This document shows, one piece after another, positions 1,942-14,865 of a DNA stretch of 33,233 nucleotides (position 1 is the stretch's first letter; each line of letters begins with the position of its first letter). The DNA is from a virus. The DNA lies in IMG/VR virus record IMGVR_UViG_3300045135_002970, positions 1 to 33,233 of that record; one strand, given 5' to 3'. A model generated the notes under the pieces. It did not search any database and was not told the DNA's origin. It saw nothing but the letters and a program-made list of their open reading frames with translations. The translations under genes were made by a program, and so were the position numbers.

Positions 1942-1949
1942 TATAAATA
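1942..1949 (+). promoter_or_regulatory. T4-type late promoter for the plus-strand secretome operon
   Basis: Exact TATAAATA, the T4 late-promoter -10 element read by gp55-type sigma factors. It lies about 85 bases upstream of the first gene of the plus-strand operon, and a gp55-like sigma is encoded at 28749-29477. There is no -35 box, as expected for this class. Confidence 0.6.
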
Positions 1950-2034: not shown

Positions 2035-2517
2035 ATGAAATTATTATTATTTTTATTAACGACATTATTTATTTTTCCCCTGTCAATAGAAGCACAAGAG
2101 GTATTTGTAGACAGGGTAGAGAATAGAGTTGTTATCGGAAAATTAGCTGGAAATAGAAATTTATCATTCGGTGTCAGAAATGTTCTTGAAGAATATCTTA
2201 TGGAAGCCGATTATGATTTATTTCCAAATGCTAAAAATAAAATAAATGTTGAGATCGTATTTTTAGATGTTTTGACGACAAGTCGAAACATATCAATTTT
2301 TTCAAAAAGAAGCGATGCTGTTGTAATAAGACTTCGTGGAGTTCTAAAAAGAGATGGTGAGGTTGTTAAAGAAGTGGTAGTAGAAGAATCGTCGGCAGAA
2401 GTATCGATGGCCACTTTGGTAATTGATAATGGGGGCAACTTTAACCAAACTAGTTTGAGTAATGCTTTGAAAAAGGCTTGTGAAAAATTAATTGAAGAAC
2501 TTCACGGAGAATTATGA
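2035..2517 (+). CDS. Small exported protein, possibly CsgG-like domain
   Basis: A 160-aa protein with a signal peptide ending IEAQ (about residue 21). An upstream in-frame ATG at 2017 would add six residues before the same signal and has no better ribosome site, so I chose 2035. The mature part alternates strands and helices. FGVRNVLEEYLMEADYDL, then a strand with VEIVFLDVLTTSRN, a second RLRGVLKRDGEVVKE pair and a final ALKKACEKLIEEL helix recall the domain order of the CsgG-like protein at 5217-5936. The similarity is by pattern, not by motif identity. It is the first gene behind the late promoter, and its stop overlaps the ATG of the next gene. Export confident; fold tentative. Confidence 0.6.
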   Translation: MKLLLFLLTTLFIFPLSIEAQEVFVDRVENRVVIGKLAGNRNLSFGVRNVLEEYLMEADYDLFPNAKNKINVEIVFLDVLTTSRNISIFSKRSDAVVIRLRGVLKRDGEVVKEVVVEESSAEVSMATLVIDNGGNFNQTSLSNALKKACEKLIEELHGEL

Positions 2518-4571
2518 AAAAATTACTTACTCTTTTGACAGGGTTACTATTATTACCTACTGTTGTTGAGGCTCAAAACAATCCAGAATTTTGGTGGGGA
2601 CTTCAAACATATACTCAAGATAAGAACGGTGGACCAATTGAAAAAGGTGACACCGTTTATCTAGAAGTTAAAATTAATCCTAACGGATCTAACATTCGAT
2701 CAACCTATTTTGATTTTCAGCATCAAAAAGATGCTGTTCATTTTCTAGGTGTTGAACGACGAGAAGCCATCCCATCTCAAAACAGTTTTCAGGTACACAA
2801 CTGGTTTTATCCAAATTGTAAATTTAATAGAACCTCTAATAATGTTACAAACGTGGGTTGGACGAATTGGCAGTACGCAAATTATACCTGTAATGCCTCA
2901 GAAGTTCCCTATACAGCAATCAACCGTGTCTATACCAGCGTTGCAGGTAATCAAGATATTACTGATATTGCAACTTACATACGATTGAAATTTGAAATTA
3001 CAAATACAGATGCTGGATTCCCTTACGATTCTGTATATATGAACTTTGCTATTGGGGTTAGTGGTGACCACTTTGGGGGTAATGGATACAGCTGGCTACA
3101 GGGTACAACCAATTCTGGACCCAAGGGAACGTGGATTCAATTAGCATCAACAGAAAACAACTTAATAACCGGACAATTAAAACATAGTGGAAATACTTCT
3201 AGTGATGCTAAAGATAAGATGAGTTTACGAGTGTACAATGCTAGTGATAATCTTGTTCTACAACACGCTATAGGAACTGGTAACGGAAGTTTTTCATTTG
3301 CTGAAGTACTTGACCAAAATTCAGATTATACTTTTAAGTTACACACCAGTGACGTTGACGCATTACTTGGCGAAGCAATCACAATTTCAGATTATACTGC
3401 TGCAGTAACAGAATTTATAAGTCAGAACTTAGATGGTACATATAACAACAATAATATTGACCATGGTATGAAATACTGGGCAGCTGACATAAACAATGAC
3501 AGTACATTTGATGCACCAGATCTACAAGCATTATTTAATCATGTTGTTGGAGTAGATACAATTGATGCAGCTCCTAATGGATACTTGCCGATATTCCCCA
3601 CATCAGAATATGATGGTACAACATTTACATCTTGGAAAAGTATAAAAGAATCGGGTAGAGTATTAGCAACAACCGATGGGGGTCAGGTAGAATGGGTGGT
3701 TCTATATGCATATGACAACACAAATAAAAGATATAGAATTGCATTGGATAGTAGAGAGTTTCCTACAGGGGCTCCGGCGTGGGACGCATTAACTCATTTA
3801 CAATTATTTGATTTATATCAAGGAGCGATTGTTCCCAAATCAACTGGAACAGGAACCGCTTATTGGAATGAATATTGGATTTATACTGATGATCAGATAG
3901 ATTTTAGTGATACTAATTACAATGCTTATATAAGAGATATGGGAAATAGTGAGTACGCATTTAAGGCCGAACTATCTTTTACACAAAGTAATTTACGAGA
4001 AATTCCATTTGTAACCACAACTGCTACACAACAAGTTGCTTGGAACTATGGAATTAAAGGTGATGTTAATTTGTCACACTCATCACCATTAACCACATCC
4101 GGTGTAACTCAACAAGCCCGGCTGGTTCAAACAGACCCAAGTATTGATCTAAATCTAAACAATGTGATTGTTACCTCTGACTCATTAACTATTCCATTTG
4201 AAATAGACAGTAGAAACATCCCCGTATCAGCTCTTCAATTCGAAGTTCAGTACGATCAGACTAAATTAAAATTTGAAGAACTAGACGCAAACACACCAAG
4301 TTGGATAACTTTTGTTAATGATAATGATGGTACATTACGATTTGGGGGATTATCAGAATGGCACACGAACTCAGCAGATCATCTAATCACAGGTCAAGCT
4401 ACACCATTTACACTTAAGTTTAGTTCAATAGGTTCTGGAACGGATCTAAATTCAAATATTTTGTTAACAAGAAATCTTGATGTCGCAGATGGGGGTGGAC
4501 ATCAAATTGGTATGAACATAAACACAAATCTTATTAAATTGATTGGTGTAAACAATTTTACCGGAAATTAA
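2514..4571 (+). CDS. Large secreted protein with dockerin-like and cohesin-like segments
   Basis: A 685-aa protein with a signal peptide ending VEAQ (about residue 20). The N-terminal third is Asn/Trp/Tyr-rich with four Cys-containing turns, typical of extracellular beta domains. About residues 320-345 hold DINNDSTFDAPDLQALFNHV, which matches one calcium-binding dockerin-type repeat (D-x-N-x-D-x-x-x-D plus helix). The last 130 residues (SLTIPFEIDSRNIPVSALQF, then EVQYDQTKLKFEEL and TPFTLKFSSIGSG) look like a cohesin-type beta sandwich. Dockerin and cohesin bind one another, so the protein could self-associate or form a surface polymer. It overlaps the previous stop by 4 bases and is followed at once by a lipoprotein gene. 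Proposed as cargo or partner of the CsgG-like pore; that link is inference. Confidence 0.7.
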   Translation: MKKLLTLLTGLLLLPTVVEAQNNPEFWWGLQTYTQDKNGGPIEKGDTVYLEVKINPNGSNIRSTYFDFQHQKDAVHFLGVERREAIPSQNSFQVHNWFYPNCKFNRTSNNVTNVGWTNWQYANYTCNASEVPYTAINRVYTSVAGNQDITDIATYIRLKFEITNTDAGFPYDSVYMNFAIGVSGDHFGGNGYSWLQGTTNSGPKGTWIQLASTENNLITGQLKHSGNTSSDAKDKMSLRVYNASDNLVLQHAIGTGNGSFSFAEVLDQNSDYTFKLHTSDVDALLGEAITISDYTAAVTEFISQNLDGTYNNNNIDHGMKYWAADINNDSTFDAPDLQALFNHVVGVDTIDAAPNGYLPIFPTSEYDGTTFTSWKSIKESGRVLATTDGGQVEWVVLYAYDNTNKRYRIALDSREFPTGAPAWDALTHLQLFDLYQGAIVPKSTGTGTAYWNEYWIYTDDQIDFSDTNYNAYIRDMGNSEYAFKAELSFTQSNLREIPFVTTTATQQVAWNYGIKGDVNLSHSSPLTTSGVTQQARLVQTDPSIDLNLNNVIVTSDSLTIPFEIDSRNIPVSALQFEVQYDQTKLKFEELDANTPSWITFVNDNDGTLRFGGLSEWHTNSADHLITGQATPFTLKFSSIGSGTDLNSNILLTRNLDVADGGGHQIGMNINTNLIKLIGVNNFTGN

Positions 4572-4574
4572 ATC

Positions 4575-4916
4575 ATGAAAAGAATTTTATTTTGTATTAC
4601 ATTACTAACATTAACATCGTGTAGTTTTACCCCAACAGAACCTCCAATCAAAGAACCTGTTGATTTGGGAGTTCCAGCATTGGAAAATCAAATTAACTTT
4701 AATCCAATTACAAATAAGATCACAGCAACATTAACCCCAGGCGCGGTATATGTATTACAAGCGATTGGTATTGATGGTAATGTAATGGATAGTAAACCAA
4801 TTGAGTTTGGTGACGATATTTCTATTGATGATTTTGATTTAATATTTGGATCATACGATTTACATTTAGTAGACAATCGTGGTCACTTCACAAAAACAAT
4901 ATTACTCGTAAGATAA
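4575..4916 (+). CDS. Predicted lipoprotein
   Basis: A 113-aa protein with signal MKRILFCITLLTLTSC and lipobox LTSC (Cys 16). The mature part starts with a Pro/Thr/Glu linker and then a single small beta-rich domain (ITATLTPGAVYVLQAIGIDG, then DLIFGSYDLHLVDNRGHFTK), perhaps of immunoglobulin-like or carbohydrate-binding type. It starts three bases after the stop of the large secreted protein, so it is in the same operon and may anchor that protein to the membrane. No family recognised. Confidence 0.7.
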   Translation: MKRILFCITLLTLTSCSFTPTEPPIKEPVDLGVPALENQINFNPITNKITATLTPGAVYVLQAIGIDGNVMDSKPIEFGDDISIDDFDLIFGSYDLHLVDNRGHFTKTILLVR

Positions 4917-4926
4917 GGAGAACATC

Positions 4927-5205
4927 ATGTCAGAAGAAGGTGGTAATAGCCTAAAAAATTCAATTATAGGATTAATTACTGTTGTTGTAACAGCTTTAAC
5001 AGGTGTGGTTGCAAATAATTTTTTAGGTGGGGACGACACAGAAGAGGAACCCGCTGCAGCAGTTGCTCCTGTAATTAATTTAAATTTAGAAAATAATAAT
5101 GAAGTTAATAATGATGGTGGACCAGATGTTATTATCATTGAAAGTGACGATGATGATGAAGAAGAAGAACCAGATGCACATCTAAGAGCTAAACCAAAAT
5201 GGTAG
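4927..5205 (+). CDS. Single-TM protein with acidic tail
   Basis: A 92-aa protein with a good ribosome site (AAGGAG). Residues 10-31 form one transmembrane helix (SIIGLITVVVTALTGVVANN). It is followed by an Asp/Glu- and Asn-rich tail including ESDDDDEEEE and a short basic end. There is no cleavable signal. Genes of this shape (short start, one helix, charged tail) are common next to phage envelope genes. Here it sits between a lipoprotein and the CsgG-like gene, so a role in assembling that system is possible. A holin role is not supported by anything beyond size and the helix. Confidence 0.65.
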   Translation: MSEEGGNSLKNSIIGLITVVVTALTGVVANNFLGGDDTEEEPAAAVAPVINLNLENNNEVNNDGGPDVIIIESDDDDEEEEPDAHLRAKPKW

Positions 5206-5216
5206 GAGAATCCATA

Positions 5217-5936
5217 ATGAAAAAATTAATCTTAGCATTATTTTTGTTTCCATCAGTTTTAGTAGCACAAACAATTGGTTCTACTAGAACAGAACAATAT
5301 ACTGCATCATTTGAAACTGGTGGTAATTATGGTGAGTTAATCGGATACGATTATGATGGTCCAACAATTCCAATTCAATTATTAAAAGTTGGTATTGGTC
5401 CAGAACTATATGATTTTTATCCCGAATTAAGAGATAATCGTGTGGGTCTTGGGGTTACTAATATTGTTCTTGAGTTTTTAGATGAAACTTGGCGTTTTAC
5501 ATTTACTGAAGACAAAACAGAAATTAAAAATAGAATGGTGGCTCAATGGGAAGCTAGTGATGCTGGTGTTTCACAAAATCAAGTTAGTGGGTTTGGTCAA
5601 GTTGTATTAGCAAAATATTTTGCATATGTAGAAGTTTATGACTATTCAGTTTCGGAAGACGAAACATTAAACTTATCTGATGGTGTTAAAAATACTGTAG
5701 TGACTCGTCTTGGGTTACAGGTTCGTTTTGTAGATGCGGAAACGGGTCAAATTATTACAGGTTCCGGTCTTGGTACAGGAACAACTGTTCGTGAGTTATC
5801 ATTATTAAATGATGACAATTTAGAAGAAGTTAGATTTAATCAGAGTACAATTGGAATTGCTACTCGCAAGGCTCTTGAGGAAGCTGCTGCCAAAATTGTT
5901 AGAAGAATGATTAGACGAGGTATTTTTGAATCTTAA
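5217..5936 (+). CDS. CsgG-like curli secretion pore protein
   Basis: A 239-aa protein starting at the ATG after TAGGAG; an upstream frame start at 5199 lacks a ribosome site. The signal peptide ends LVAQ (residue 18); no lipobox is seen, unlike E. coli CsgG. CsgG features are the GLGVTNIVLEFLDET segment, the long strand-turn-strand around TRLGLQVRFVDAETGQII, a GSGLGTGTT turn, and a final ATRKALEEAAAKIVRRM helix. CsgG forms a nonameric pore in the outer membrane that exports curli subunits. I recall csgG/csgF-like genes being reported in marine T4-like phages of SAR11. Here the neighbours are all exported proteins, which fits a secretion role for the pore. Family call fairly sure; substrate unknown. 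Confidence 0.75.
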   Translation: MKKLILALFLFPSVLVAQTIGSTRTEQYTASFETGGNYGELIGYDYDGPTIPIQLLKVGIGPELYDFYPELRDNRVGLGVTNIVLEFLDETWRFTFTEDKTEIKNRMVAQWEASDAGVSQNQVSGFGQVVLAKYFAYVEVYDYSVSEDETLNLSDGVKNTVVTRLGLQVRFVDAETGQIITGSGLGTGTTVRELSLLNDDNLEEVRFNQSTIGIATRKALEEAAAKIVRRMIRRGIFES

Positions 5937-5948
5937 TATAGGAGTTTT

Positions 5949-6560
5949 ATGAAAAAGTTATTACTTTTATTTTTAATGGCAACACCTGTACAAGCACAGC
6001 TATTAGAAATTGATAGAGAAGAATATGATATCGTATTTTCCACCGAACTTATGTATCCGTTGTCTGTTAAATGGGAAACTAATCGTGAAGACGTAACGTG
6101 TGAAGATCCCTTGTCACGTAAAGATAGATTTGTTCCAGATCCCCTATATAGAGAGGAAACTAATCTAGCTAAAGATTATGTTGGTTCTGGTTTAGACCGT
6201 GGTCACATTTCCCCTGCCGCCGATAATCTTTGTGACGGTGAAGCTGTTATGTTAGAAAGTTTTTATTTTACAAATATGGCACCACAATATCCTGGCCTTA
6301 ATCGTGGCCAGTGGAAATCATTAGAAGACCACACAAGAAAATTAGCTGAGAATTGGGACACCATTCGAATTGAAGCTGGTTGTGTTGGTGAAGAAAGAAA
6401 AGTAAATAGATTGTCAGTACCAACACATTGTTGGAAAATTATTGAAATTGTCGAAACTGGAGAAATCACTGCATACGTCTTCCCAAATGTTCCCGAAAAA
6501 ACAAGATCGTTTGTTGATCATATTGTTTCATTGGATAGTATTGATGCCCTAAGAAGATAA
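5949..6560 (+). CDS. Secreted DNA/RNA non-specific endonuclease (NUC1 family)
   Basis: A 203-aa protein with a signal peptide ending VQAQ (about residue 17). It has the family's DRGH motif (LDRGHISPAADN, catalytic His) and the metal-binding Asn region FYFTNMAPQYPGLNRGQW. Four or more Cys suggest disulphides and an extracytoplasmic home. This beta-beta-alpha-Me nuclease hydrolyses DNA and RNA without sequence specificity using one magnesium ion. It is short but complete for the family (about 200-240 residues). It stands 12 bases after the CsgG-like stop, with a TAGGAG ribosome site. A secreted nuclease could salvage nucleotides, destroy DNA of incoming phages, or clear released host DNA. Function sure, purpose inferred. 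Confidence 0.9.
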   Translation: MKKLLLLFLMATPVQAQLLEIDREEYDIVFSTELMYPLSVKWETNREDVTCEDPLSRKDRFVPDPLYREETNLAKDYVGSGLDRGHISPAADNLCDGEAVMLESFYFTNMAPQYPGLNRGQWKSLEDHTRKLAENWDTIRIEAGCVGEERKVNRLSVPTHCWKIIEIVETGEITAYVFPNVPEKTRSFVDHIVSLDSIDALRR

Positions 6561-6561
6561 A

Positions 6562-8385
6562 ATGAAAAAGTTTGTATTTGCAACTTCACTTGCAATTTTA
6601 TCTTTACTATTTGTAGATGATCTGAGCGCACAAGTGGTTGTTTCTAATTGGATTGATCCATGTGACAATACAACAAAAACAGTAATTTTCCCGATGGCGA
6701 ATGTAGGAGTTTTAGTTTCTTATCGTGGAATGTCTCGAACGTTTACAGCAGCTGAGGCAAGAGCCGGAGCATTACAAACTTGGATTCAAGAAGTAACTGA
6801 ATATGTCCCGTGTCCCATAGAAAACAATGAAGTTGTAAACCAGACAGCAACCACGGCCGCGACTGACGCGGCGGCCGCCGCAGCGGCTGCTGCAGCGGAG
6901 GCTGCAGCTCAAGCCGCAGCAGAGGAAGCGGCACAAGCGGCTGCTGAAGAGGCGGCTGCCGCAGCAGCTGAGGAGGCTGCGGCTGCAGCAGCGGAGGAAG
7001 CCGCGGCGGCTGCAGCGGAAGAAGCAGCTGCTGCAGCTGCTGAGGAAGCTGCGGCCGCAGCTGCTGAAGAGGCGGCCGCCAGTTCTGCTGGTGGTACAAC
7101 TACTACTACTACCACATCTAGCACAACTACTTCTTCGTCTACCACATCGACTTCTAGTACAACCACTACTAGCACTGGTAGTGAGCAAAATAATACAACC
7201 ACCTCTACTTCCAGCACAACCTCGTCGGGTGACCAAAGTACAACAACATCAAGCGACCAAAGTACAACAAGTAGTGACTCAGGCACTACTTCAGATTCAA
7301 ATTCTACTACTTCTGATTCAGGCACCACTTCGGATTCGTCGGATTCGAGCACTACTTCTGATTCATCTGATTCAAGTACTAGTTCTGATTCTAGTGACTC
7401 CAGTAGTAGTTCCGATTCCAGTGATTCCAGTAGCTCAGACTCCAGTGATTCTAGTGACTCTAGTAGCAGTAGCGAAGAATCTAGTAGTAGTGAGGAGTCC
7501 AGTAGTAGCGAAGAATCTAGCAGTAGTGAAGAGTCAAGCACTGAGGAATCTTCCGAAGAATCAAGTACTGAAGAATCTACAGAAGAAAGTAGTGAAGAAT
7601 CAAGCGAAGAAAGTTCAGACAGTGAAGAAACTGAAGAGTCTGAAGAGAGTAGTGAAGACTCTGAGGAATCGGAGGAGGATTCAGAAGATTCAGAAGATTC
7701 AGAAGAAGACGAAGAGGAATCTGAGGAAGAGGAAAGTGCCGGTAATCCATTACTTGTTGCCGCTAACTTAACCTTTGGTCAAAGTCCCGATGGTGGGTTT
7801 TCTTCTGTAACGACAATTGGTGCGTCTAGAGCTTCTATGATGGGTGATGTGAGTTATGGTGCTACTGGAGTTATATGGAGCACCCTAGATCAGTTTGCTC
7901 TTTCTACAGCATATTCGAAAACAGGTTTTGTGGGTGGAGAGTTGTGGAATGTAAGAAACTTTTCTGCTACAACCGCTTATCTAAACGGAAACTGGTTGGG
8001 TATGCTTGGGTATACAGAGGTTTTACCAGATGTAAGTGGTGGTGTCTGGGGAATGAGCAATAGTGTGTTGTCACTGTTTATGAATGGTGAGGAAGGGTGG
8101 CAACGATCATATAGTATGTCTTCTATTTTATTTTATATGCCCCCACCATTTGCAGTGGGTGAAAGAATGATGTTAAGTCCACAATTATTTTTTATCGGTG
8201 CACCATACAGTTATACTAGTATAACAGGACTCGTAGTCAATACCAATATAAACTATATGGTAGGTACGGGATTCTCATATATGTTTACGAGAAGATTCGG
8301 TCTTCAAGGAGCATATAGAGCTATGATTGCTAGTGAGACTCCGATATTAAATTTCCTAATGATTGGGACTTCTGTTACCTTTTAG
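6562..8385 (+). CDS. Giant low-complexity outer-membrane protein (helical rod, Ser/Asp stalk, beta-barrel)
   Basis: A 607-aa protein. A signal peptide ends LSAQ (about residue 24). Residues 25-95 form a small domain with two Cys (IDPCDN, VPCPIE). Residues about 102-174 are an Ala/Glu helix built from the octad EEAAAAAA repeated five times. Residues about 178-391 go from Thr/Ser to Ser/Asp to Ser/Glu low complexity. The last 215 residues are strands with aromatic girdles and end in SVTF, a terminal Phe as in outer-membrane barrels. The order suggests an N-terminal tip on a helical rod and acidic stalk, anchored by a C-terminal barrel, as in autotransporter-like adhesins. It starts one base after the nuclease stop. 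Its last 30 bases overlap the convergent protease gene. No family recognised for the barrel. Confidence 0.8.
   Translation: MKKFVFATSLAILSLLFVDDLSAQVVVSNWIDPCDNTTKTVIFPMANVGVLVSYRGMSRTFTAAEARAGALQTWIQEVTEYVPCPIENNEVVNQTATTAATDAAAAAAAAAAEAAAQAAAEEAAQAAAEEAAAAAAEEAAAAAAEEAAAAAAEEAAAAAAEEAAAAAAEEAAASSAGGTTTTTTTSSTTTSSSTTSTSSTTTTSTGSEQNNTTTSTSSTTSSGDQSTTTSSDQSTTSSDSGTTSDSNSTTSDSGTTSDSSDSSTTSDSSDSSTSSDSSDSSSSSDSSDSSSSDSSDSSDSSSSSEESSSSEESSSSEESSSSEESSTEESSEESSTEESTEESSEESSEESSDSEETEESEESSEDSEESEEDSEDSEDSEEDEEESEEEESAGNPLLVAANLTFGQSPDGGFSSVTTIGASRASMMGDVSYGATGVIWSTLDQFALSTAYSKTGFVGGELWNVRNFSATTAYLNGNWLGMLGYTEVLPDVSGGVWGMSNSVLSLFMNGEEGWQRSYSMSSILFYMPPPFAVGERMMLSPQLFFIGAPYSYTSITGLVVNTNINYMVGTGFSYMFTRRFGLQGAYRAMIASETPILNFLMIGTSVTF
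6868..7083 (+). repeat. Ala/Glu octad repeat with shuffled codons
   Basis: Encodes five back-to-back EEAAAAAA units plus degenerate flanking units. The protein units are identical but the Ala and Glu codons differ in each copy, and the stretch is far richer in G+C than the rest of the window. Confidence 0.85.
7095..7736 (+). repeat. Ser/Thr to Ser/Asp to Ser/Glu low-complexity tract
   Basis: About 210 codons of Ser/Thr, then Ser-Asp-Ser, then Ser-Ser-Glu-Glu repeats. Net charge becomes steadily more negative toward the barrel. It resembles Ser-Asp stalks of surface adhesins and probably forms an extended disordered spacer. Confidence 0.85.
7399..7471 (+). repeat. Donor copy of the Ser-Asp repeat shared with 8708-8792
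   Basis: This stretch recurs as a direct repeat 1309 bases downstream with one substitution (7438 g to 8747 a) and a 12-base tandem insertion in the second copy. Here it is read in sense as Ser-Asp repeats. Confidence 0.85.
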
Positions 8386-8883
8386 AGATATCAAATTTTG
8401 ATTTGCAAGAAGATTACAACTAGCAAATTGTACACCATGGTTCACCACACCTAACGCATGAAGAATTTCATGTGCAGCTACCCAAGAAACATTTCTATAT
8501 TGATACGCGATTCGAATTGTTTTTGTTTGTGGAATGTATTCAGCAATTGTAATGTCATTGTTAGTTCTTTCTATTTCTTTGTCAGGAAAAAGTTCCCAAA
8601 TTATGTCTTCATAGTTAACAGGAACATTTATAGCAGAACAATCAAGCACATACCTAAAAGCATCTCTACGCATTTTTTCAATCTCAACCATTTCTTGTTG
8701 AGACATTTCCAGTAGTAGTTCCGATTCCAGTGATTCCAGTAGCTCAAACTCCAGTGATTCTAGTGACTCTTCTAGTGACTCTAGTAGCAGTAATTCTAGT
8801 GACTCCTGAAATGGCATTTCCGATTCTTGTAAAATTGGATATGTAAAAAAATAAATAAATACTAATATAATTGTATAATTCAT
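8356..8883 (-). CDS. Metzincin-like zinc protease with repeat-derived N-terminal insert
   Basis: A 175-aa protein with a GGAGAA ribosome site before the ATG at 8883. Residues 1-18 are a hydrophobic export signal. Residues about 31-59 are an amphipathic Leu/Glu/Ser segment encoded by the antisense strand of a copied Ser-Asp repeat. Then comes a compact protease domain with HEILHALGVVNH at residues 138-149, the full metzincin HExxHxxGxxH-type zinc site (H138, E139, H142, H149; spacing H-E-x-x-H-x-x-G-x-x-x-H). The domain is small, as in minimal matrixin-like proteases; a Met-turn is not obvious. It converges on, and overlaps by 30 bases, the giant outer-membrane protein gene. It may process surface proteins of the same module. 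Zinc site sure; family inferred. Confidence 0.75.
   Translation of the reverse strand: MNYTIILVFIYFFTYPILQESEMPFQESLELLLLESLEESLESLEFELLESLESELLLEMSQQEMVEIEKMRRDAFRYVLDCSAINVPVNYEDIIWELFPDKEIERTNNDITIAEYIPQTKTIRIAYQYRNVSWVAAHEILHALGVVNHGVQFASCNLLANQNLISLKGNRSPNH
8708..8792 (+). repeat. Second copy of the Ser-Asp repeat, read antisense in the protease gene
   Basis: Direct repeat of 7399-7471 with an extra 12-base unit (8771-8782). It lies inside the minus-strand protease gene, so there it codes for a Leu/Glu/Ser stretch (ESLESLEFELLESLESE) instead of Ser-Asp. Confidence 0.85.
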
Positions 8884-8908: not shown

Positions 8909-8989
8909 TGCCCAAGGAGGGATTCGAACCCCCACGCCATAAGACATCAGATCCTAAATCTGACGCGTCTACCGTTCCGCCACTTGGGC
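8909..8989 (-). tRNA. tRNA-Leu (anticodon TAG)
   Basis: Minus strand: 7-bp acceptor GCCCAAG/CTTGGGC, anticodon loop TTTAGGA, long variable arm, T-loop TTCGAAT, discriminator A. No CCA encoded. Confidence 0.92.
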
Positions 8990-8996
8990 CTAACAA

Positions 8997-9078
8997 CGGA
9001 AAGGGTGGGATTCGAACCCACGAGCACTTACGTGCGACAGATTAGCAGTCTGCTCCGTTACCACTCCGGCACCTTTCC
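8997..9078 (-). tRNA. tRNA-Ser (anticodon GCT)
   Basis: Acceptor GGAAAGG/CCTTTCC, anticodon loop CTGCTAA, class II variable arm, T-loop TTCGAAT, discriminator G as usual for serine tRNAs. Confidence 0.92.
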
Positions 9079-9081
9079 TAA

Positions 9082-9591
9082 TTAATATTTCACTATAGTT
9101 TCGTGGTTCCAATCAAACCACTTTAAAATATGATTTTGTGATTGGTACACATTGGTCAAAATGTGATTTTTAATTTCCAGAATATCGGGAGCTACTGGAT
9201 TGTCTGTATCTCTATCAAATACCCATAGTTTTTCAGGACACAATCTAGCTAAAACATTATGTAAATTAACATGACGATAATGACCATATTCACCAGACTG
9301 ATTGTGAGTTACGATCTTTGTCCATGTTCGTTCTTCTAATACCCTAGTAATCAAAGGAATTAAAATAGATTCATTATATGCAGCCGAAGACTTGAATGGT
9401 TCACCGTCCCAATGTTCCCATTTTTGAATACCGATGGTTTCCATCGCTTTTATAAATTCTCTATGTCTAATTAAATGATTGCCATAATCTAATGCTACAA
9501 CTTTATATTCTTTATAATTCTGTATTAGTTCTGCTCCACCAAACAACACCTCGTCGTCTGGGTGTGCGACAATCATAAGTTTATTAATCAC
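9082..9591 (-). CDS. PIG-L/LmbE-family zinc deacetylase
   Basis: A 169-aa protein with the family's AHPDDE motif at residues 9-14 (zinc-binding His10 and Asp13, catalytic Asp12) and a second zinc region HNQSGEYGHYRHVNLH (about residues 104-119). PIG-L/LmbE enzymes remove the N-acetyl group from N-acetylglucosamine-containing compounds or related amides. It is shorter than many family members (220 or more) but both metal motifs are present. Its start overlaps the end of nagB by eight bases, so the two are one transcript. Together they could turn an N-acetylated amino sugar into fructose-6-phosphate and ammonia; which substrate it deacetylates is unknown. Confidence 0.85.
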   Translation of the reverse strand: MINKLMIVAHPDDEVLFGGAELIQNYKEYKVVALDYGNHLIRHREFIKAMETIGIQKWEHWDGEPFKSSAAYNESILIPLITRVLEERTWTKIVTHNQSGEYGHYRHVNLHNVLARLCPEKLWVFDRDTDNPVAPDILEIKNHILTNVYQSQNHILKWFDWNHETIVKY

Positions 9592-10267
9592 AATAAAATA
9601 CTCTTACATTTTCATGTTCTTTTAATATAGAAGCTGGTACATCGGGGGTCGTTTTTCCCCATATAGCTTTTACGAGAGCATCACGTTTGTGTTCACCGTG
9701 TACCATCATAATTATTTCTTTTGAACTCATAATAGTTTTTAATCCCATTGTAATTGCTTGAGTGGGAACATCATCAATAGAATCAAAAAATCTACTATTA
9801 TCTTTTATGGTTTGTTGGGTTAAGTTTACAATTCTTGTTGTTGAATTAAATGGTGTGGATGGTTCATTAAAAGCAATATGACCATTAGAACCTAGTCCTA
9901 GTATTGTTAAATCCAACCCACCAGCTTTTTGAATTTCATCGTCATAATTTAAATTTGGAAATCTAATATTTTCTTCTTTGATATCAGTGTACATATGTAA
10001 ACGACGCCACATAAAATTTGTATAACTTTCTGGATGATCTGGGTCTATGTCAATATATTCATCTAAATTAAATGTTGTGACCGCTGACCAAGTTAGATTT
10101 CTCTCAACCAAAGATTTATACATTCCAATGGGAGTTCCACCCGTGGGTAGTCCAAGTTTTATGTGTGGTAAGTTATGGGTGCCCGGTATAGGAGCAATTA
10201 GGTCTTCAATAATATCAGCCACCATGACCGACATTGTGGAATAATCTGTAATATAATTTATAATCAT
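9584..10267 (-). CDS. nagB: Glucosamine-6-phosphate deaminase
   Basis: About 227 aa. NagB turns glucosamine-6-phosphate into fructose-6-phosphate and ammonia. Visible motifs are GLPTGGTP (phosphate loop), FNLDEY (catalytic Asp), GLGSNGHIAFNEP (catalytic His and lid) and ITMGLKTIMSS. It is shorter than E. coli NagB (266), lacking the C-terminal part linked to allosteric GlcNAc-6-P control, as in some Gram-positive enzymes. I chose the ATG at 10267 because it forms an ATGA overlap with the DUF2452 gene; an in-frame ATG at 10279 would add four residues. It is followed by the overlapping PIG-L deacetylase gene. NagB is a rare phage metabolic gene. Confidence 0.92.
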   Translation of the reverse strand: MIINYITDYSTMSVMVADIIEDLIAPIPGTHNLPHIKLGLPTGGTPIGMYKSLVERNLTWSAVTTFNLDEYIDIDPDHPESYTNFMWRRLHMYTDIKEENIRFPNLNYDDEIQKAGGLDLTILGLGSNGHIAFNEPSTPFNSTTRIVNLTQQTIKDNSRFFDSIDDVPTQAITMGLKTIMSSKEIIMMVHGEHKRDALVKAIWGKTTPDVPASILKEHENVRVFYCD

Positions 10268-10647
10268 TTCTTTAACCATGAATGTTCTGGTGTTAATTTA
10301 AATGAACCCACATATCCTTTCCATCCTGTGTCTTCGTAGGATAGTAAGGAAAGAAAATGAGTTCCGTTTTCTCGTTGATAGAGGTGATATGTTTTCCCTA
10401 TCCTTGGTTTAAAATTAATTTCCGCCTCGTATACTGCTTTATTCCAATGATATTCCTTGACCAATGCTTCCCAATCGTCTTTGAGTCGGTCATACTTTTC
10501 TTTGAAGTAATGACCAAAGGTAGGTTCTACGGTTTTTATCCATCCCTTAATGTCCTCAGGCGTAATGCTAGCTGGACTATTAGGGGTTCTACCATATGAG
10601 AGAGCGTTATCCCTCTTACCATCTTCTATAGGTTTTGGTAATGTCAT
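10264..10647 (-). CDS. DUF2452 family protein
   Basis: A 127-aa protein with a strong GGAGG ribosome site. The pattern NALSYGRTPNSPAS, then KEYHWNKAVYEAEINFKP, IGKTYHLYQRENGTHFLSLL and a final VGSFKL-type strand fits DUF2452, a domain of unknown function found in marine bacteria, eukaryotes and T4-like marine phages. Its stop overlaps the nagB start. It heads the three-gene minus-strand set with nagB and the deacetylase, just downstream of two tRNAs. No catalytic residue can be assigned. Confidence 0.7.
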   Translation of the reverse strand: MTLPKPIEDGKRDNALSYGRTPNSPASITPEDIKGWIKTVEPTFGHYFKEKYDRLKDDWEALVKEYHWNKAVYEAEINFKPRIGKTYHLYQRENGTHFLSLLSYEDTGWKGYVGSFKLTPEHSWLKK

Positions 10648-10666
10648 TACTCCTCCATGTAACTTA

Positions 10667-10739
10667 TACCCCCGGCAGGATTCGAACCTGCGACTCCCGG
10701 CTTAGAAGGCCGGTGCTCTATCCACTGAGCTACGGAGGC
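10667..10739 (-). tRNA. tRNA-Arg (anticodon TCT)
   Basis: Cloverleaf with anticodon loop CTTCTAA, T-loop TTCGAAT, acceptor GCCTCCG paired to CGGGGGT (two G-U pairs), discriminator A. Confidence 0.92.
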
Positions 10740-10746
10740 AAATTGA

Positions 10747-10819
10747 TGGAGCCAATCGGGATCGAACCGATGACCTCCTGCGTGCAAAGCAGGCGCTCTC
10801 CCATCTGAGCTATGGCCCC
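10747..10819 (-). tRNA. tRNA-Ala (anticodon TGC)
   Basis: Acceptor GGGGCCA/TGGCTCC with a G-U pair at position 3, the alanine identity mark; anticodon loop TTTGCAC; T-loop TTCGATC; discriminator A. Confidence 0.93.
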
Positions 10820-10828
10820 GATACAATT

Positions 10829-10857
10829 AATTTAACTATATAGTGGTGAGATGTCAA
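10829..10857 (-). promoter_or_regulatory. Possible sigma70-like promoter before the Ala/Arg tRNAs
   Basis: Minus strand TTGACA (10852-10857), 17-base spacer, TAAATT (10829-10834). It overlaps the end of phoH and faces the two tRNAs, DUF2452 and nagB. The -10 box is weak. Confidence 0.35.
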
Positions 10858-11549
10858 TGGTGTCCATTACCATTTAAATTTTCATATGCATCTAATAAAG
10901 CGTCAACAACTGAATGTCGGTGGTTTACAACTAACGTATGGGAATCAACATCTTTAATCTGTTTTGATTTGGATAATATAAATTTAAATCCAGAGTCTTG
11001 TTTTTGTTTTAAATCTACTTGTTGATTGTCACCACAAATCACCATTTTACTTCTAATACCAAGTCGTGAAATAATCATTTCGGTTTGTTCGTGAGTACAA
11101 TTTTGTGCTTCGTCTACAATAACAAAGCTATCTAAAAAGGTACGACCTCTCATAAATGCAACTGGAACGATTTCTATAGATCCGTCGCTTAATATAGTAT
11201 CAATTTTGTCTCTTCTGTATAGTTGATAAAAATTTGAATAGATGGGTTGCATCCACGGTTCCATTTTTTCTCTAAGATCGCCGGGGAGAAAACCAATTTC
11301 TTCTTTCGATACAGTCGGTCGGGTAATTACAATTTGTTTAACTTGTTTTCTAAATAACATATCAAGAGCAACTTGACACGCTAAGAGAGTTTTACCAGAC
11401 CCAGCTTTCCCATTAAGAACAGTTATGGCATTATCAAGTATTTTTTGTTTTGCTATTTTTTGTTCTTCATTTAGTTGAATTCGAAACCGTATGGGACCTT
11501 TTGGTTTTCTTTTGGGGGTAGAACCGTTACCATTATTTTTTCTTGACAT
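10854..11549 (-). CDS. phoH: PhoH-like ATPase
   Basis: A 231-aa protein. I placed the start at 11549, where AAGGAGAG precedes the ATG; the frame extends to an ATG at 11576 that would swallow this ribosome site. Walker A is GKAGSGKT (residues 47-54), followed by ITRPTVSKEEIGFLPG typical of PhoH, and Walker B is FVIVDEAQN (about 142-150). PhoH is a P-loop ATPase, distantly related to helicases, widely carried by marine phages and often called part of the phosphate-stress set; its true role is unsettled, with RNA-related activity suggested. A TATAAATA late promoter sits about 50 bases upstream. The N-terminus is a Lys/Arg/Asn-rich tail. Confidence 0.92.
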   Translation of the reverse strand: MSRKNNGNGSTPKRKPKGPIRFRIQLNEEQKIAKQKILDNAITVLNGKAGSGKTLLACQVALDMLFRKQVKQIVITRPTVSKEEIGFLPGDLREKMEPWMQPIYSNFYQLYRRDKIDTILSDGSIEIVPVAFMRGRTFLDSFVIVDEAQNCTHEQTEMIISRLGIRSKMVICGDNQQVDLKQKQDSGFKFILSKSKQIKDVDSHTLVVNHRHSVVDALLDAYENLNGNGHH

Positions 11550-11575
11550 AACACCACTCTCCTTGATGTAACTCA

Positions 11576-11583
11576 TATAAATA
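11576..11583 (+). promoter_or_regulatory. T4-type late promoter for 11684-11923
   Basis: Exact TATAAATA on the plus strand, about 100 bases upstream of the small membrane gene, back to back with the late promoter for phoH. Confidence 0.55.
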
Positions 11584-11597
11584 GTTTCTAATTAATG

Positions 11598-11605
11598 TAT
11601 TTATA
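11598..11605 (-). promoter_or_regulatory. T4-type late promoter for phoH
   Basis: Exact TATAAATA on the minus strand (TATTTATA on the plus strand), about 50 bases before the phoH start codon. Confidence 0.6.
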
Positions 11606-11683
11606 CTACTTATATTTGAGGTATACCCGTGTTTTGTGTTTTAAGAAGAAGTTATTTTCTATGAACAAAACAGAGGAGTATTT

Positions 11684-11923
11684 ATGGATCTTTTGAAGAA
11701 GGTTGGCTCTTGGGTCAACCAACTTACGGAGGTCGGTGTGGGTGTTGTCGCTCTGGGTGTAGTGCTTGAAGTGCTATTTACTGGAGAGGGGATTCCCTTT
11801 TGGCCTGACATTTCTGTGGTAGATAATATCATGGGAATCGTTGGATCATTAAGTAACGAGGGTCTACTAGGATTAGTAGGTGCATTCGTTCTATACCACA
11901 TCCTTAAAGACAGACAAGGATAA
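11684..11923 (+). CDS. Small membrane protein, function unknown
   Basis: A 79-aa protein behind AGAGGAG. Residues about 17-34 (VGVGVVALGVVLEVLF) and about 58-73 (NEGLLGLVGAFVLYHIL) are hydrophobic, so two membrane passes are likely; the N-terminus is amphipathic and the C-terminus basic (KDRQG). It is a lone plus-strand gene inside a minus-strand block, with its own late promoter upstream and a strong terminator downstream, so it is an independent single-gene late unit. That isolation and the two-helix shape would suit a holin or a virion membrane-active peptide, but no motif supports either. Confidence 0.7.
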   Translation: MDLLKKVGSWVNQLTEVGVGVVALGVVLEVLFTGEGIPFWPDISVVDNIMGIVGSLSNEGLLGLVGAFVLYHILKDRQG

Positions 11924-11960
11924 CACCAGTTCTACTCATAGTTTTAATATAACGCGTTCG

Positions 11961-11988
11961 AAAAGGCCCTACTTCGGTAGGGTCTTTT
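11961..11988 (+). terminator. Rho-independent terminator with UUCG loop
   Basis: Stem AAAAGGCCCTAC/GTAGGGTCTTTT around a TTCG tetraloop, followed by T-rich sequence. The A-run on its left could let it act on both strands. It closes the single-gene unit at 11684-11923. Confidence 0.85.
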
Positions 11989-11996
11989 CACTTTTA

Positions 11997-12068
11997 CGGT
12001 CCCACGGGGAATCGAACCCCGCTCTTTGCCGTGACAGGGCAATATTCTAGCCGATAAACTATAGGACC
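11997..12068 (-). tRNA. tRNA-Asp (anticodon GTC)
   Basis: Acceptor GGTCCTA/TGGGACC, anticodon loop CTGTCAC, T-loop TTCGATT, discriminator G as expected for aspartate. Confidence 0.92.
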
Positions 12069-12071
12069 AAC

Positions 12072-12431
12072 TTATTTTACCATTCCATGTTTAGTTGGTT
12101 TTCCATCTTCATCTAAACAAACAAAAACAATTTCATCAATGTGTGCTATCACTTGTCTGGTTTTTTCATTTCGTACTACAGCATCAACTGTGATCGAAGT
12201 TTTTCCTAGTTGTTTTAACTGTACTCCAATTTCAATTAAATCACCTTGGTGTGCTGGTGCAATAAAATCTATTTCTGACATTTTTTTGGTGACCAGACGA
12301 TAATGTTTGATTTCAGACATTATATACATCGCGGCGGCTTCATCAACCCATGATAAAGCAGTACCACCAAATAATGTGTTAGCGGCGTTTAAGTCGCCCG
12401 GCATGACAATTTTTCTAGTTAAGAATCTCAT
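12072..12431 (-). CDS. YciA-type acyl-CoA thioesterase (hotdog fold)
   Basis: A 119-aa protein typical in length for a single hotdog domain. MPGDLNAANTLFGGTALSWVDEAAAM (key Asn, Gly and Asp residues in the order of the acyl-CoA hydrolase family) and DFIAPAHQGDLIEIGVQL are the two diagnostic regions. Such enzymes hydrolyse acyl-CoA to fatty acid and CoA and act as hexamers or similar in the cytosol. Its start overlaps the upstream gene's stop (ATGA). A phage copy could tune host membrane lipid or CoA pools; this is an inference. Family call sure. Confidence 0.88.
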   Translation of the reverse strand: MRFLTRKIVMPGDLNAANTLFGGTALSWVDEAAAMYIMSEIKHYRLVTKKMSEIDFIAPAHQGDLIEIGVQLKQLGKTSITVDAVVRNEKTRQVIAHIDEIVFVCLDEDGKPTKHGMVK

Positions 12432-12781
12432 TTGGAATCGTCTCTTACCACCCTAACGATAAATGTATCACGGCTCATGCCTGTTGTTTCTAGAGTCACG
12501 TTTTCAATACCTCTGGAATAGAGAAGCCACTCCATCTCTCTGTTGGTTGGAAGACCCAATTCTATTTGTAGGGCCTCCTCCTTAATGATCTCACCACGCC
12601 AATCTATCCAACCGTCGTCACAGCAAGCAAAGTGGGTAACAGGAATATATGCTGAAATCCATTTTGTTGTGCCTAGCTCAGTGTCATCCATGTTTTTGTA
12701 CGGGAACCAATGATCAACCCACTCTCGTTTCATGTGGTCGGGTCTGTCACAACTAGGACAGATATCTTGGAGTTCGTCCAT
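12428..12781 (-). CDS. Hypothetical protein with Cys-rich N-terminus
   Basis: A 117-aa protein. CPSCDRPDHM near the N-terminus and ACCDDGW further on give a CxxC plus CC pattern that could bind zinc. The rest is rich in Trp, Asp and Glu. The C-terminal half (TNREMEWLLYSRGI, then RDTFIVRVVRDD) looks like a compact alpha/beta domain. Its stop overlaps the thioesterase start, so the pair is co-translated. A poor ribosome site precedes the ATG. No family recognised. Confidence 0.65.
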   Translation of the reverse strand: MDELQDICPSCDRPDHMKREWVDHWFPYKNMDDTELGTTKWISAYIPVTHFACCDDGWIDWRGEIIKEEALQIELGLPTNREMEWLLYSRGIENVTLETTGMSRDTFIVRVVRDDSK

Positions 12782-12810
12782 TTAAAAATTTGATTCCTTT
12801 TGATTATGAA

Positions 12811-12895
12811 TGCTTCGGGCGAGATTCGAACTCGCAAGCCCTTACCGGGCGTCAGATTTTAAGTCTGATGTGTATACCTATTCCACCACCGAAGC
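12811..12895 (-). tRNA. tRNA-Leu (anticodon TAA)
   Basis: Acceptor GCTTCGG/CCGAAGC, anticodon loop CTTAAAA, long variable arm, T-loop TTCGAAT, discriminator A. Second leucine isoacceptor of the array. Confidence 0.92.
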
Positions 12896-12902
12896 GAGAA
12901 AA

Positions 12903-13181
12903 TTAATTTAAGTCTAGTTGAACTTTTAATAATGCTAAATCACGTTCAAGTTGGTTAACGAGATCTTCTAGTTCTTCAACACGTTCAGTTAATAATCCGC
13001 TAGTGCCTATGTACTTCTTTTGACGATCAAGTACATCTTCTATTTGTGTTGCATTTTGCATATCTGCATTTTCAAAATCACGAAATCTTGTACCTGCAAA
13101 CCAAGAAGCTGCAATTATACTAATTGCAAAACCAATACTAACCGCAGGTAATGATGATGCTTTACTTATCGGGTTAGCCAT
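12903..13181 (-). CDS. Membrane-anchored coiled-coil protein
   Basis: A 92-aa protein with TTGGAG before the ATG. Residues about 12-30 (LPAVSIGFAISIIAASWFAG) are one transmembrane helix. The last 30 residues (LLTERVEELEDLVNQLERD and on) are a heptad coiled coil. The same helix-plus-coiled-coil layout recurs at 19814-20170. Inner-membrane spanin components have this shape, but no lipoprotein partner is adjacent. It sits among tRNA genes in a minus-strand run. Confidence 0.65.
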   Translation of the reverse strand: MANPISKASSLPAVSIGFAISIIAASWFAGTRFRDFENADMQNATQIEDVLDRQKKYIGTSGLLTERVEELEDLVNQLERDLALLKVQLDLN

Positions 13182-13221
13182 ATTTTACTCCAAATAAAAA
13201 TTAATAGGTAGTCATAAGTAG

Positions 13222-13295
13222 TCGGGATAGCTGGATTCGAACCAGCGGCCCCTCGCTCCCAAAGCGAGTGCGCTACCGGACTGCGCCATATCCCG
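13222..13295 (-). tRNA. tRNA-Pro (anticodon TGG)
   Basis: Acceptor CGGGATA/TATCCCG, anticodon loop TTTGGGA, T-loop TTCGAAT, discriminator A. Confidence 0.92.
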
Positions 13296-13298
13296 AAG

Positions 13299-13372
13299 AG
13301 CTACCTTTCGGATTCGAACCGAAGACCTGCTGCTTACAAGGCAGCTGCTCTGGCCAACTGAGCTAAGGTAGC
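13299..13372 (-). tRNA. tRNA-Thr (anticodon TGT)
   Basis: Acceptor GCTACCT/AGGTAGC, anticodon loop CTTGTAA, T-loop TTCGAAT, complete cloverleaf three bases from the proline tRNA. Confidence 0.92.
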
Positions 13373-13631
13373 ACATCGACCGTTGAAGCCGTCGCTTCTT
13401 CTGCTATCGGGGACGGTCACTCCCTCACCTACCACAATTAAAACCGTAGACCAAGTGTAGGGTCAGTACTACGGTCCTACGGAAACAAGGCCCGTAAGAA
13501 CCCCCACATAAGGACTGGCGGCCACACCAGCAAGTTCCGATCAAGGAACACCTTATGTTTCATCAAATCATACATTCTAGATTGCGACTCTAGATGTTCA
13601 GTGGGAACACCACCTAGTATGTTTGATTGGT
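13373..13631 (-). ncRNA. Structured RNA A (gene-free gap in the tRNA array)
   Basis: This part of the gap has no reading frame but, read on the minus strand, many perfect helices. They are an 11-bp stem with one bulge (13617-13627 with 13562-13573) enclosing GTGG/CCAC and TCTAGA/TCTAGA hairpins; an 8-bp stem ACATAAGG/CCTTATGT (13551-13558 with 13506-13513) enclosing GTTCC/GGAAC and CTGG/CCAG hairpins; CCGTAG-type 7-bp (13469-13475 with 13443-13449) interlaced with GTAGG/CCTAC (13476-13480 with 13457-13461), a possible pseudoknot; and GACCGT/ACGGTC around GAAGC-GACG-GCTTC (13378-13418). Two three-way junctions are clear. It starts right after a hammerhead candidate. No known RNA class recognised. 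Confidence 0.65.
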
Positions 13632-13678
13632 ATCTGTGACTTTTCAGTTTCTAGCATTTCAGCCGTCATCAGACAGAT
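13632..13678 (-). ncRNA. Candidate type I hammerhead ribozyme
   Basis: On the minus strand: stem I ATCTGT/ACAGAT (6 bp, 13673-13678 with 13632-13637), core CTGATGA (13666-13672), a weak stem II (about three pairs with a C-A mismatch at its base), GAAA (13648-13651), stem III ACT/AGT with a GAAA loop, and the cleavage triplet GTC (13638-13640). Self-cleavage would fall between 13638 and 13637, separating the upstream glutamine tRNA from RNA A and the threonine tRNA. The core and stems I and III fit; stem II is the weak point. Confidence 0.55.
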
Positions 13679-13682
13679 TTAG

Positions 13683-13755
13683 TTGCCCCACTAGGACTCG
13701 AACCTAGACTTTCATGATCCAAAGTCACGCGTGTTGCCAGTTACACCATGGGGCA
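13683..13755 (-). tRNA. tRNA-Gln (anticodon TTG)
   Basis: Acceptor TGCCCCA/TGGGGCA, anticodon loop CTTTGGA on stem CGTGA/TCATG, T-loop TTCGAGT, discriminator A. Confidence 0.9.
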
Positions 13756-13784
13756 GTCGCTTTTTTTTACTACGTTCACACCAG

Positions 13785-13858
13785 TACGCCCACAGGGACT
13801 TGAACCCCGAACCTATCGCATATAAGGCGAGTGCTCTCACCAATTGAGCTATGAGCGC
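13785..13858 (-). tRNA. tRNA-Ile (anticodon TAT)
   Basis: Anticodon loop CTTATAT, acceptor GCGCTCA/TGGGCGT with G-U pairs, T-loop TTCAAGT. One anticodon-stem mismatch at the outer pair. Reads the rare ATA codon, common in this AT-rich genome. Confidence 0.88.
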
Positions 13859-13861
13859 ATA

Positions 13862-13935
13862 TGGACCCTGTAGGACTTGAACCTACGACCTACCGATTAT
13901 GAGTCGGCTGCTCTAACCGACTGAGCTAAGGGTCC
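13862..13935 (-). tRNA. tRNA with anticodon CAT (Met or lysidine-type Ile)
   Basis: Acceptor GGACCCT/AGGGTCC, anticodon loop CTCATAA, T-loop TTCAAGT, discriminator A. It lacks initiator features (a 1-72 pair is present and no GGG/CCC run is seen in the anticodon stem). Met and Ile2 cannot be told apart here. Confidence 0.88.
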
Positions 13936-13938
13936 GCA

Positions 13939-14010
<72 letters not shown>

Positions 14011-14013
14011 AAA

Positions 14014-14086
14014 TAGCCCGTAGGAGAATTGAACTCCTCTCTTCGCCGTGAAAGGGCGATGTCCTAATCCGATAGACGAACGGGCC
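14014..14086 (-). tRNA. tRNA-Glu (anticodon TTC)
   Basis: Acceptor GGCCCGT/ACGGGCT, anticodon loop CTTTCAC, T-loop TTCAATT, discriminator A. Confidence 0.9.
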
Positions 14087-14089
14087 ACA

Positions 14090-14329
14090 GTAATAGAATG
14101 TGAGTGAAGGATTTCCTTGTACCTCCAATAGAGCTACCCCGAAGGGTTACCGTAGGCTTTGGCCAGCTCTAAACCGTGAATGTGTCCGCCGACTGTTAAG
14201 TCAGGATTGCGAATCCAAATAATGATTGCCGGTCATTATTGTGTTCTTAACGTTCACGTACCTTGTCCCCCGATAGAAGGGACTATTCAGTCAACTCACG
14301 GATGCCCGTCGGCACCGCTTTTCTATTAC
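14090..14329 (-). ncRNA. Structured RNA B closed by a 9-bp perfect stem
   Basis: A gene-free 240-base gap between the glutamate and lysine tRNAs. GTAATAGAA (minus strand, 14321-14329) pairs perfectly with TTCTATTAC (14090-14098) and closes the whole unit. Inside, on the minus strand, are GTCCC/GGGAC (14279-14283 with 14265-14269), AATAATGA/TCATTATT (14233-14240 with 14218-14225), GGATT/AATCC (14212-14216 with 14204-14208), a CTGACT/AGTCGG hairpin, and AGAGCT/AGCTCT (14165-14170 with 14130-14135) enclosing ACCC-TTCG-GGGT. This is a many-branched RNA of a class I do not recognise. Confidence 0.65.
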
Positions 14330-14348
14330 CTAAATTTTCAAATAACTA

Positions 14349-14421
14349 TGGTCCCTCTGGGACTCGAACCCAGAACCTATTGGTTAAAAGCCAAGTGCTC
14401 TACCAATTGAGCTAAAGGACC
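14349..14421 (-). tRNA. tRNA-Lys (anticodon TTT)
   Basis: Acceptor GGTCCTT/AGGGACC, anticodon loop CTTTTAA, T-loop TTCGAGT, discriminator A. Confidence 0.92.
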
Positions 14422-14423
14422 AT

Positions 14424-14515
14424 TGAAATGTTGTGTCGCCACACACAATAAACCTTAAAGTATCTTACTACTCCTGTTCCCGAAGGACTACAAAGGCGTT
14501 GTACTAGGCATTTCA
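14424..14515 (-). ncRNA. Structured RNA C between tmRNA and tRNA-Lys
   Basis: A 92-base gap unit closed by TGAAATG/CATTTCA (14509-14515 with 14424-14430). Inside are TTGTGT/ACACAA (14443-14448 with 14431-14436) and a GTCC-TTCG-GGAAC hairpin near 14476-14488. It lies just downstream of the tmRNA 3' end, so it may be a maturation signal or a separate small RNA. Confidence 0.5.
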
Positions 14516-14524
14516 TATATCAGA

Positions 14525-14854
14525 TGGAGACGGCGGGATTTGCACCCGCGTCCGAACTTAACTACCCAAATCACTATCAACGCTGTAGGACAGTTAGGAG
14601 TACCAAGGTGTCCAACCTCACGGCTTTGTAACGTCTATGCCGATCACGAAATACATTCTTTGGTGTATATATCCGTACTTAGCTCTATTCCTAAGAGTCA
14701 CCCGAAGTCATTTACTTCCCGTGTTTATCCTATCGGTATCAGATAGTGGGAAGGGCTTAAGCGGCCATTAGTAAAGGTTCGTCAGTTACTTTTAAAGTAT
14801 CAAACTAGCGTATCAATTTAGTATCACTAAACCCGTCGAATCTAAATCGTCCCC
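14525..14854 (-). ncRNA. ssrA: One-piece tmRNA
   Basis: On the minus strand the 5' end reads GGGGACGATTTAGATTCGAC, the canonical tmRNA start, and the 3' end carries a T-arm (GCGGGTGCAAATCCCGC) and CGTCTCCA. The acceptor GGGGACG pairs with CGTCTCC over seven pairs (one G-U). The message part is probably GTA ACT GAC GAA CCT TTA CTA ATG GCC GCT TAA (14789-14757), giving a tag ending TDEPLLMAA, with the expected Ala-Ala end for ClpXP. tmRNA with SmpB frees stalled ribosomes and tags the protein for proteolysis. It lies within the tRNA array. The resume codon is my inference; CCA is not encoded. Confidence 0.92.
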
Positions 14855-14865
14855 GTATATGAGGA

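Follow-up and report, generated by a model that had tools for sequence, protein, structure and literature searches.

What use could a phage have for a run of genes whose products are all sent to the cell envelope? We investigated this for a window of 33,233 bases of viral DNA, which is a complete IMG/VR virus record and probably a fragment. Positions 2035–8385 of this window are filled by seven open reading frames, all on the + strand and with only a few bases of gap or overlap between neighbours. Six of the seven products start with a Sec-type signal sequence (P1, P2, the lipoprotein P3, P5, P6 and P7), and P4 has a single N-terminal transmembrane segment. A previous sequence-only reading of this DNA had described a tightly spaced set of seven genes for exported or membrane proteins. 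Both points were confirmed and its gene list stands, while the functions that it assigned need revision.

A conserved operon of Bacteroidota phages

The operon opens with P1 (2035–2517), an exported protein of 160 residues with a predicted periplasmic α/β fold of the LptE/PelC/CsgG type. P2, hereafter COH (2514–4571), is an exported protein of 685 residues comprising an N-terminal β region, a dockerin-like module and a C-terminal cohesin domain. P3 (4575–4916) is a lipoprotein with a C-terminal domain resembling a stand-alone type IX secretion system (T9SS) type-A sorting domain (CTD), and P4 (4927–5205) is a 92-residue protein with an acidic tail following its transmembrane segment. P5 (5217–5936) is an exported protein with a predicted CsgG fold and no lipobox.

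P6 (5949–6560) is an exported DNA/RNA non-specific endonuclease of the NUC1/EndoG type, as the sequence-only reading had recognized. It matches PF01223 (Pfam, E 1.2e-34), retains the catalytic DRGH motif (...SGLDRGHISPAADN...) and was the only operon product with a useful match in the PHROGs comparison. P7 (6562–8385) is an exported protein of 607 residues, and its gene mostly lies directly 3' of P5. Alignment of its homologues reveals an N-terminal domain with two conserved cysteines, a long linker that is first Ala-rich and then Ser/Asp/Glu-rich, and a conserved C-terminal domain with β-barrel-like features. Part of the P7 Ser/Asp-repeat DNA has a second copy further downstream, read there from the other strand: the 68-base copies at 7399–7466 and 8708–8775 are 96% identical, and the open reading frame around the second (8356–8883, HEILHALG) is metallopeptidase-like.

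We searched IMG/VR with P5 and found relatives encoded by 472 stretches. The best 80 of these were compared with the window and with Flavobacterium phage immuto, giving 82 loci, in which genes were called mechanically and grouped by single-linkage clustering. P5, through which the loci were chosen, is present in 82/82, COH in 79, P1 in 75, P7 in 72 and P4 in 66. Three families absent from or not recognised in the window, F4, F6 and F7, occur in 67, 57 and 50 loci, respectively, and P3 in 11. With the window itself left out, P1, COH, P5 and P7 are found in 74, 78, 81 and 71 of 81 loci, and a non-redundant set of 20 loci gave the same picture (P5 20, COH 20, P7 19, P1 18, P4 18). The nuclease is an optional passenger of the operon, since only 18 clustered nuclease genes were found across the 82 loci. 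Gene order is largely fixed among the loci compared, as P1-COH-[P3]-P4-F4-[F7]-P5-P7-F6. The operon therefore recurs in related phages, and with its synteny conserved across 80 IMG/VR loci and one isolate, chance or misassembly is a very unlikely origin for it.

The isolate is phage immuto (MW353176, Immutovirus), which infects Flavobacterium sp. LMO8. Its genes 12–19, annotated as hypothetical, lectin, cohesin-domain and EndoG, belong to the same families as the window operon. Immuto P5 shares 52% identity with window P5 and neighbours the gene annotated as cohesin-domain, and P1, P4, P7, a lectin gene and an EndoG gene are also present. Immuto differs from the window in placing P1 after P7, in having a short COH (243 residues) with a T9SS tail and in lacking P3. 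Single-sequence searches of the phage collection with P1, COH and F4 found no relatives, and immuto P1 was recognized through family clustering only.

A bacterial genome collection yielded one P5 locus, on a contig binned in a Bacteroidetes metagenome-assembled genome (MAG) and bearing the same operon. This contig (254 kb), which has the entire operon aboard, is probably a phage genome. Scanning 395 genomes of the phylum of this MAG with a P5 profile gave a strong match in that MAG only, and two weak matches that are CsgG-type proteins. Within the sensitivity of these scans, the P5 family thus appears to be essentially viral. The hosts of the operon-bearing phages are Bacteroidota, because immuto infects a Flavobacterium and the sole match in the genome collection is a Bacteroidetes MAG contig. 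The window phage groups with these Bacteroidota phages and not with the pelagiphages that carry csgG.

The remainder of the window holds a baseplate wedge subunit at its right end (31942–33231, + strand, phrog_219), which indicates a contractile-tailed phage. On the − strand are a DUF1552/HXXSHH protein (3–764, PF07586, 8.3e-45), of a family unusual for phage, and 14 tRNA genes with a tmRNA (8909–14897, tag DEPLLMAA), among which lie genes for PhoH, PIG-L, glucosamine-6-phosphate-isomerase-like and DUF2452 proteins. The same strand encodes an adenylosuccinate synthetase of the phage PurZ-like group (15072–16202, 376 residues, phrog_1211, 3.5e-98) with a QWGDEGKGK loop, possibly a gene of the 2-aminoadenine (Z) DNA pathway. 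In several relatives from the window clade, related genes (family f59) follow the operon at a distance of a few genes.

Predicted CsgG-type folds in P5 and P1

We predicted the structure of P5 with AlphaFold2 (AF2) from an alignment of 19 sequences; one row from the annotated-phage collection was left out of the alignment used for structure prediction. The model is mediocre (pLDDT 64, pTM 0.60). Nevertheless, all 20 of the best PDB matches in a Foldseek search are CsgG structures, with 4uv2 the best (E 8.0e-8, probability 1.0) and TM-scores of 0.38–0.50 across the matches. The monomer model contains one complete long hairpin (strands 134–153 and 156–173) and a 17-residue strand (179–195), followed by a low-confidence stretch; in the nonameric CsgG membrane pore, each subunit contributes two transmembrane hairpins. 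Profile alignment by hhalign against cellular CsgG proteins extends over 161 columns (E 2.6e-5). PDB sequence searches with P5 and P1 gave no CsgG matches, so the fold is taken from structure prediction, and the Pfam CsgG model matched neither window P5 nor the P5 proteins of 22 related records. The CsgG fold that the sequence-only reading had assigned to the fifth gene is thus well supported as a prediction.

The same reading had gone further, describing a complete secretion programme built around a CsgG secretion pore, and here the evidence points elsewhere. The lipobox that would supply the lipid-anchor cysteine of CsgG is found in 0/82 P5 proteins, and neither CsgF (PF10614) nor the curlin repeat (PF07012) was detected in 15 records, the window included. 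We therefore rejected an identity with the curli system (T8SS); moreover, COH of most relatives points to the type IX system of the host, as described below. A rewired phage curli system, in which the CsgG-fold protein would secrete amyloid-like or adhesive subunits, has in its favour the predicted fold of P5 and the precedent of phage T8SS in pelagiphages and Melnitz (PMC7029224, PMC9599517, PMC9004378). Yet the operon has no partner in common with the pelagiphage set as those papers describe it, and, given also the missing curli families, lipobox and Pfam matches, we consider this reading improbable.

The AF2 model of P1 (pLDDT 72) is most similar to 7rxu (3e-6), with further Foldseek matches to the DUF330 protein 2iqi, LptE, PelC and CsgG (1.7e-4), and the sequence has a sub-threshold match to Pfam CsgG (PF03783, E 0.008). 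The predicted fold of P1 places it in the LptE/PelC/DUF330/CsgG group, which includes many lipoproteins of the periplasm or outer membrane. The first gene had been labelled as a small exported protein, which is correct as to export and incomplete as to fold. We also considered P1 and P5 as two CsgG paralogues. This was dropped, because their hhalign alignment covers 25 columns only and P1 aligns to cellular CsgG with a probability of just 7.8; we claim a shared fold class and no more.

Cohesin, sorting tails and a dockerin-like module

The second gene had been read as a large secreted β protein. It is exported, but this label missed the cohesin domain at its C-terminus (PF00963, E 5.5e-6, 27.1 bits against a cut-off of 24.1), which is also recognized in immuto COH (6.4e-9). 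Outside the window clade, COH continues past the cohesin into a T9SS type-A sorting domain. This domain is identified by PF18962 (Pfam) in 10 and by TIGR04183 (NCBIfam) in 9 of 16 aligned COH homologues, most of which thus combine a Sec-type N-terminus with a C-terminal sorting domain. Across 22 viral records, of up to 317 kb, PF18962 scores above its cut-off in 13, with at most one match per record and in open reading frames of COH length. In most relatives, therefore, the secretion clue on COH points to the type IX system of the host.

In the window clade the tail is missing from the COH alignment, and window COH ends after the cohesin, with no match to such a sorting domain in the Pfam scan. 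Instead, these loci encode P3, which in the window has a lipobox (Cys16) and no Pfam match when taken alone. The C-terminal domain of the P3 family aligns by hhalign with the COH CTDs over 70 columns (probability 89.8, E 1.8e-6), and the P3 homologue of one relative (L009) matches PF18962 at 9e-5 / 9e-4. Another group with tail-less COH (L032, L069 and L072) has different lipoproteins, family f36, of which the L032 member matches PF18962 at 4e-4 and which also match DUF3244. This co-occurrence of CTD-like lipoproteins with CTD-less COH suggests that, in two groups, either the T9SS tail became detached from COH or the phages acquired lipoprotein anchors.

A candidate partner for the cohesin is F6, a protein with a C-type lectin domain whose gene is found in most relatives; none was recognized in the 33-kb record of the window. 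The C-terminal module of F6 is homologous to the internal module of COH (hhalign probability 98.5, E 2e-15, 34% identity). Compared with the PDB, the module profile matched mostly dockerins, each weakly (E 0.005–0.5), and Pfam Dockerin_1 likewise gave weak matches to 3/7 (best 0.0014). A GDxNLSxSS motif forms the extreme C-terminus of 51 F6 proteins and occurs internally in 70 COH proteins, including that of the window. Type I dockerins have a duplicated calcium-binding F-hand repeat, and here the second repeat is truncated to GDVNLSHSS. The window COH module matches the F6 profile over its last 29 columns only (E 3.8e-6). A cohesin–dockerin pairing of COH with the F6 module is plausible from these sequence relationships.

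Phage structural proteins often contain lectin and cohesin-like β domains, and the operon might accordingly encode virion-associated or receptor-binding proteins instead of proteins of the cell envelope. We regard this as very improbable: every product has a Sec signal or a transmembrane anchor and COH of most relatives has a T9SS tail, so the products would leave the cytoplasm, where virions assemble.

Timing, lysis and a proposed surface assembly

The sequence-only reading had placed the operon under a single late promoter, TATAAATA. The motif is present at 1942–1949 (+ strand) as a possible late promoter, but evidence for it is weak. The window has 9 copies against 4.5 ± 2.05 expected, a number reached by 3 of 100 shuffles, and the motif lies less than 150 bases upstream of the first gene in only 4 of 21 other loci inspected, all from the window clade (L005, L006, L009 and L020).

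In 26 loci the third gene downstream of P5, immediately following F6, encodes a GH19 endolysin with a peptidoglycan-binding domain, and in window-clade relatives the open reading frames after P7 resemble, by sequence motifs only, a class-3-type lipase and an amidase. These lysis-type neighbours suggest late timing and allow for a role in lysis. In immuto the operon adjoins genes for DNA replication and ribonucleotide reductase, a setting that speaks against a strictly late class.

Breakage of the outer membrane at lysis is the main rival explanation for the operon. The CsgG-fold ring, P7 and small transmembrane proteins would then form a spanin-like or pore device acting with holin and endolysin. 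The adjoining lysis-type genes fit this reading, as do F4 and F7, small transmembrane proteins within the operon of relatives, and a link between CsgG and lysis has been proposed for phage Melnitz (PMC9004378). But the window lacks both F4 and F7, a search of the phage collection with F4 gave no match, and P5 is without a lipid anchor, its pore being putative. Furthermore, Bacteroidetes phages have been reported with unimolecular spanins (PMC12596118), and a lysis device leaves the cohesin, the dockerin-like lectin and the T9SS tail unexplained. We therefore judge it rather unlikely. As to F4 itself (for example L010:9442-9996), the protein has an almost invariant WKELLLLLLGAFIGSYGKIIDYWFSDTDKDK stretch, and many members carry DxDxDG repeats and a Cys/His knuckle.

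An envelope-bound set that includes a relative of the curli pore and a cohesin with a T9SS tag in most relatives indicates that the surface of the infected cell is probably rebuilt. We propose, with slightly more confidence than doubt, that the operon products form a phage-encoded assembly in and on the outer membrane of the infected Bacteroidota cell. P5, and P1, would form a periplasmic or outer-membrane ring, and P7 would be an outer-membrane protein whose linker lies in the periplasm. The cell surface would display COH, which in most relatives would leave through the host T9SS and in the window clade would be anchored by P3, the CTD-like lipoprotein. Lectin/dockerin partners would bind the cohesin. 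Against this assembly we count the lack of a CTD on window COH, the lack of a Pfam match for P3 itself, the absence of a recognized F6 in the window, the quality of the P5 model and the adjoining lysis genes, since a role in lysis could be meant.

The purpose of such an assembly is much less certain. Its most likely use would be to alter the infected-cell surface late in infection, either to prevent superinfection by other phages, whose incoming DNA the exported nuclease would destroy, or to render the cells adhesive. More tentatively, and with doubts that outweigh our confidence, a widespread lineage of Bacteroidota phages may hijack the host T9SS to raise a cellulosome-like cohesin–dockerin scaffold on infected cells. 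The CsgG-type ring and the outer-membrane protein would serve as its envelope base, and the T9SS tail would have given way to a separate lipoprotein anchor in the window clade.

Reports of phage csgG, like those of T9SS cargo in phages, come from few places and give no known function, and here one conserved operon joins a csgG-type gene to T9SS cargo in many viral contigs. None of the papers found on T9SS, cohesin and csgG in phages, which covered Cryophage, crAss-BACON, pelagiphages and Melnitz, describes this operon, in agreement with the earlier view of the gene set as undescribed. Since the cultured phage immuto carries the operon, phage remodelling of the Bacteroidota outer surface is directly testable.

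Comparison with known systems indicates what is shared and what is distinct. The phage csgG operons of pelagiphages and Melnitz (csgF-csgG-csgA/B, FecR, AC) also contain an exported CsgG-fold protein. In the present operon neither CsgF nor curlin repeats were detected, the CsgG-fold protein is unlipidated, its partners are a cohesin, a CTD-like lipoprotein and P7, and the host phylum differs. T9SS sorting domains on phage genes, with Bacteroidetes-type hosts, are likewise shared with Cryophage, which encodes T9SS type-A cargo (PMC7468147), and with the sorting domains near crAss-BACON open reading frames (PMC6949934). Whereas those are variable enzymes, here one conserved cohesin cargo sits in a fixed operon in many phages, and in the window clade a distinct lipoprotein carries the tail-like domain. 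Cellulosomal scaffolds resemble the operon in combining a cohesin (PF00963) with a dockerin-like module and in the surface anchoring that this implies. Unlike them, the operon is phage-encoded, no glycoside hydrolase was identified among its genes in the window, and its module is atypical, with one DxNxDG-type repeat, a truncated GDVNLS repeat and putative binding. If the proposed pairing is correct, the phage cohesin and its dockerin-like partners would put cohesin–dockerin chemistry to a new use.
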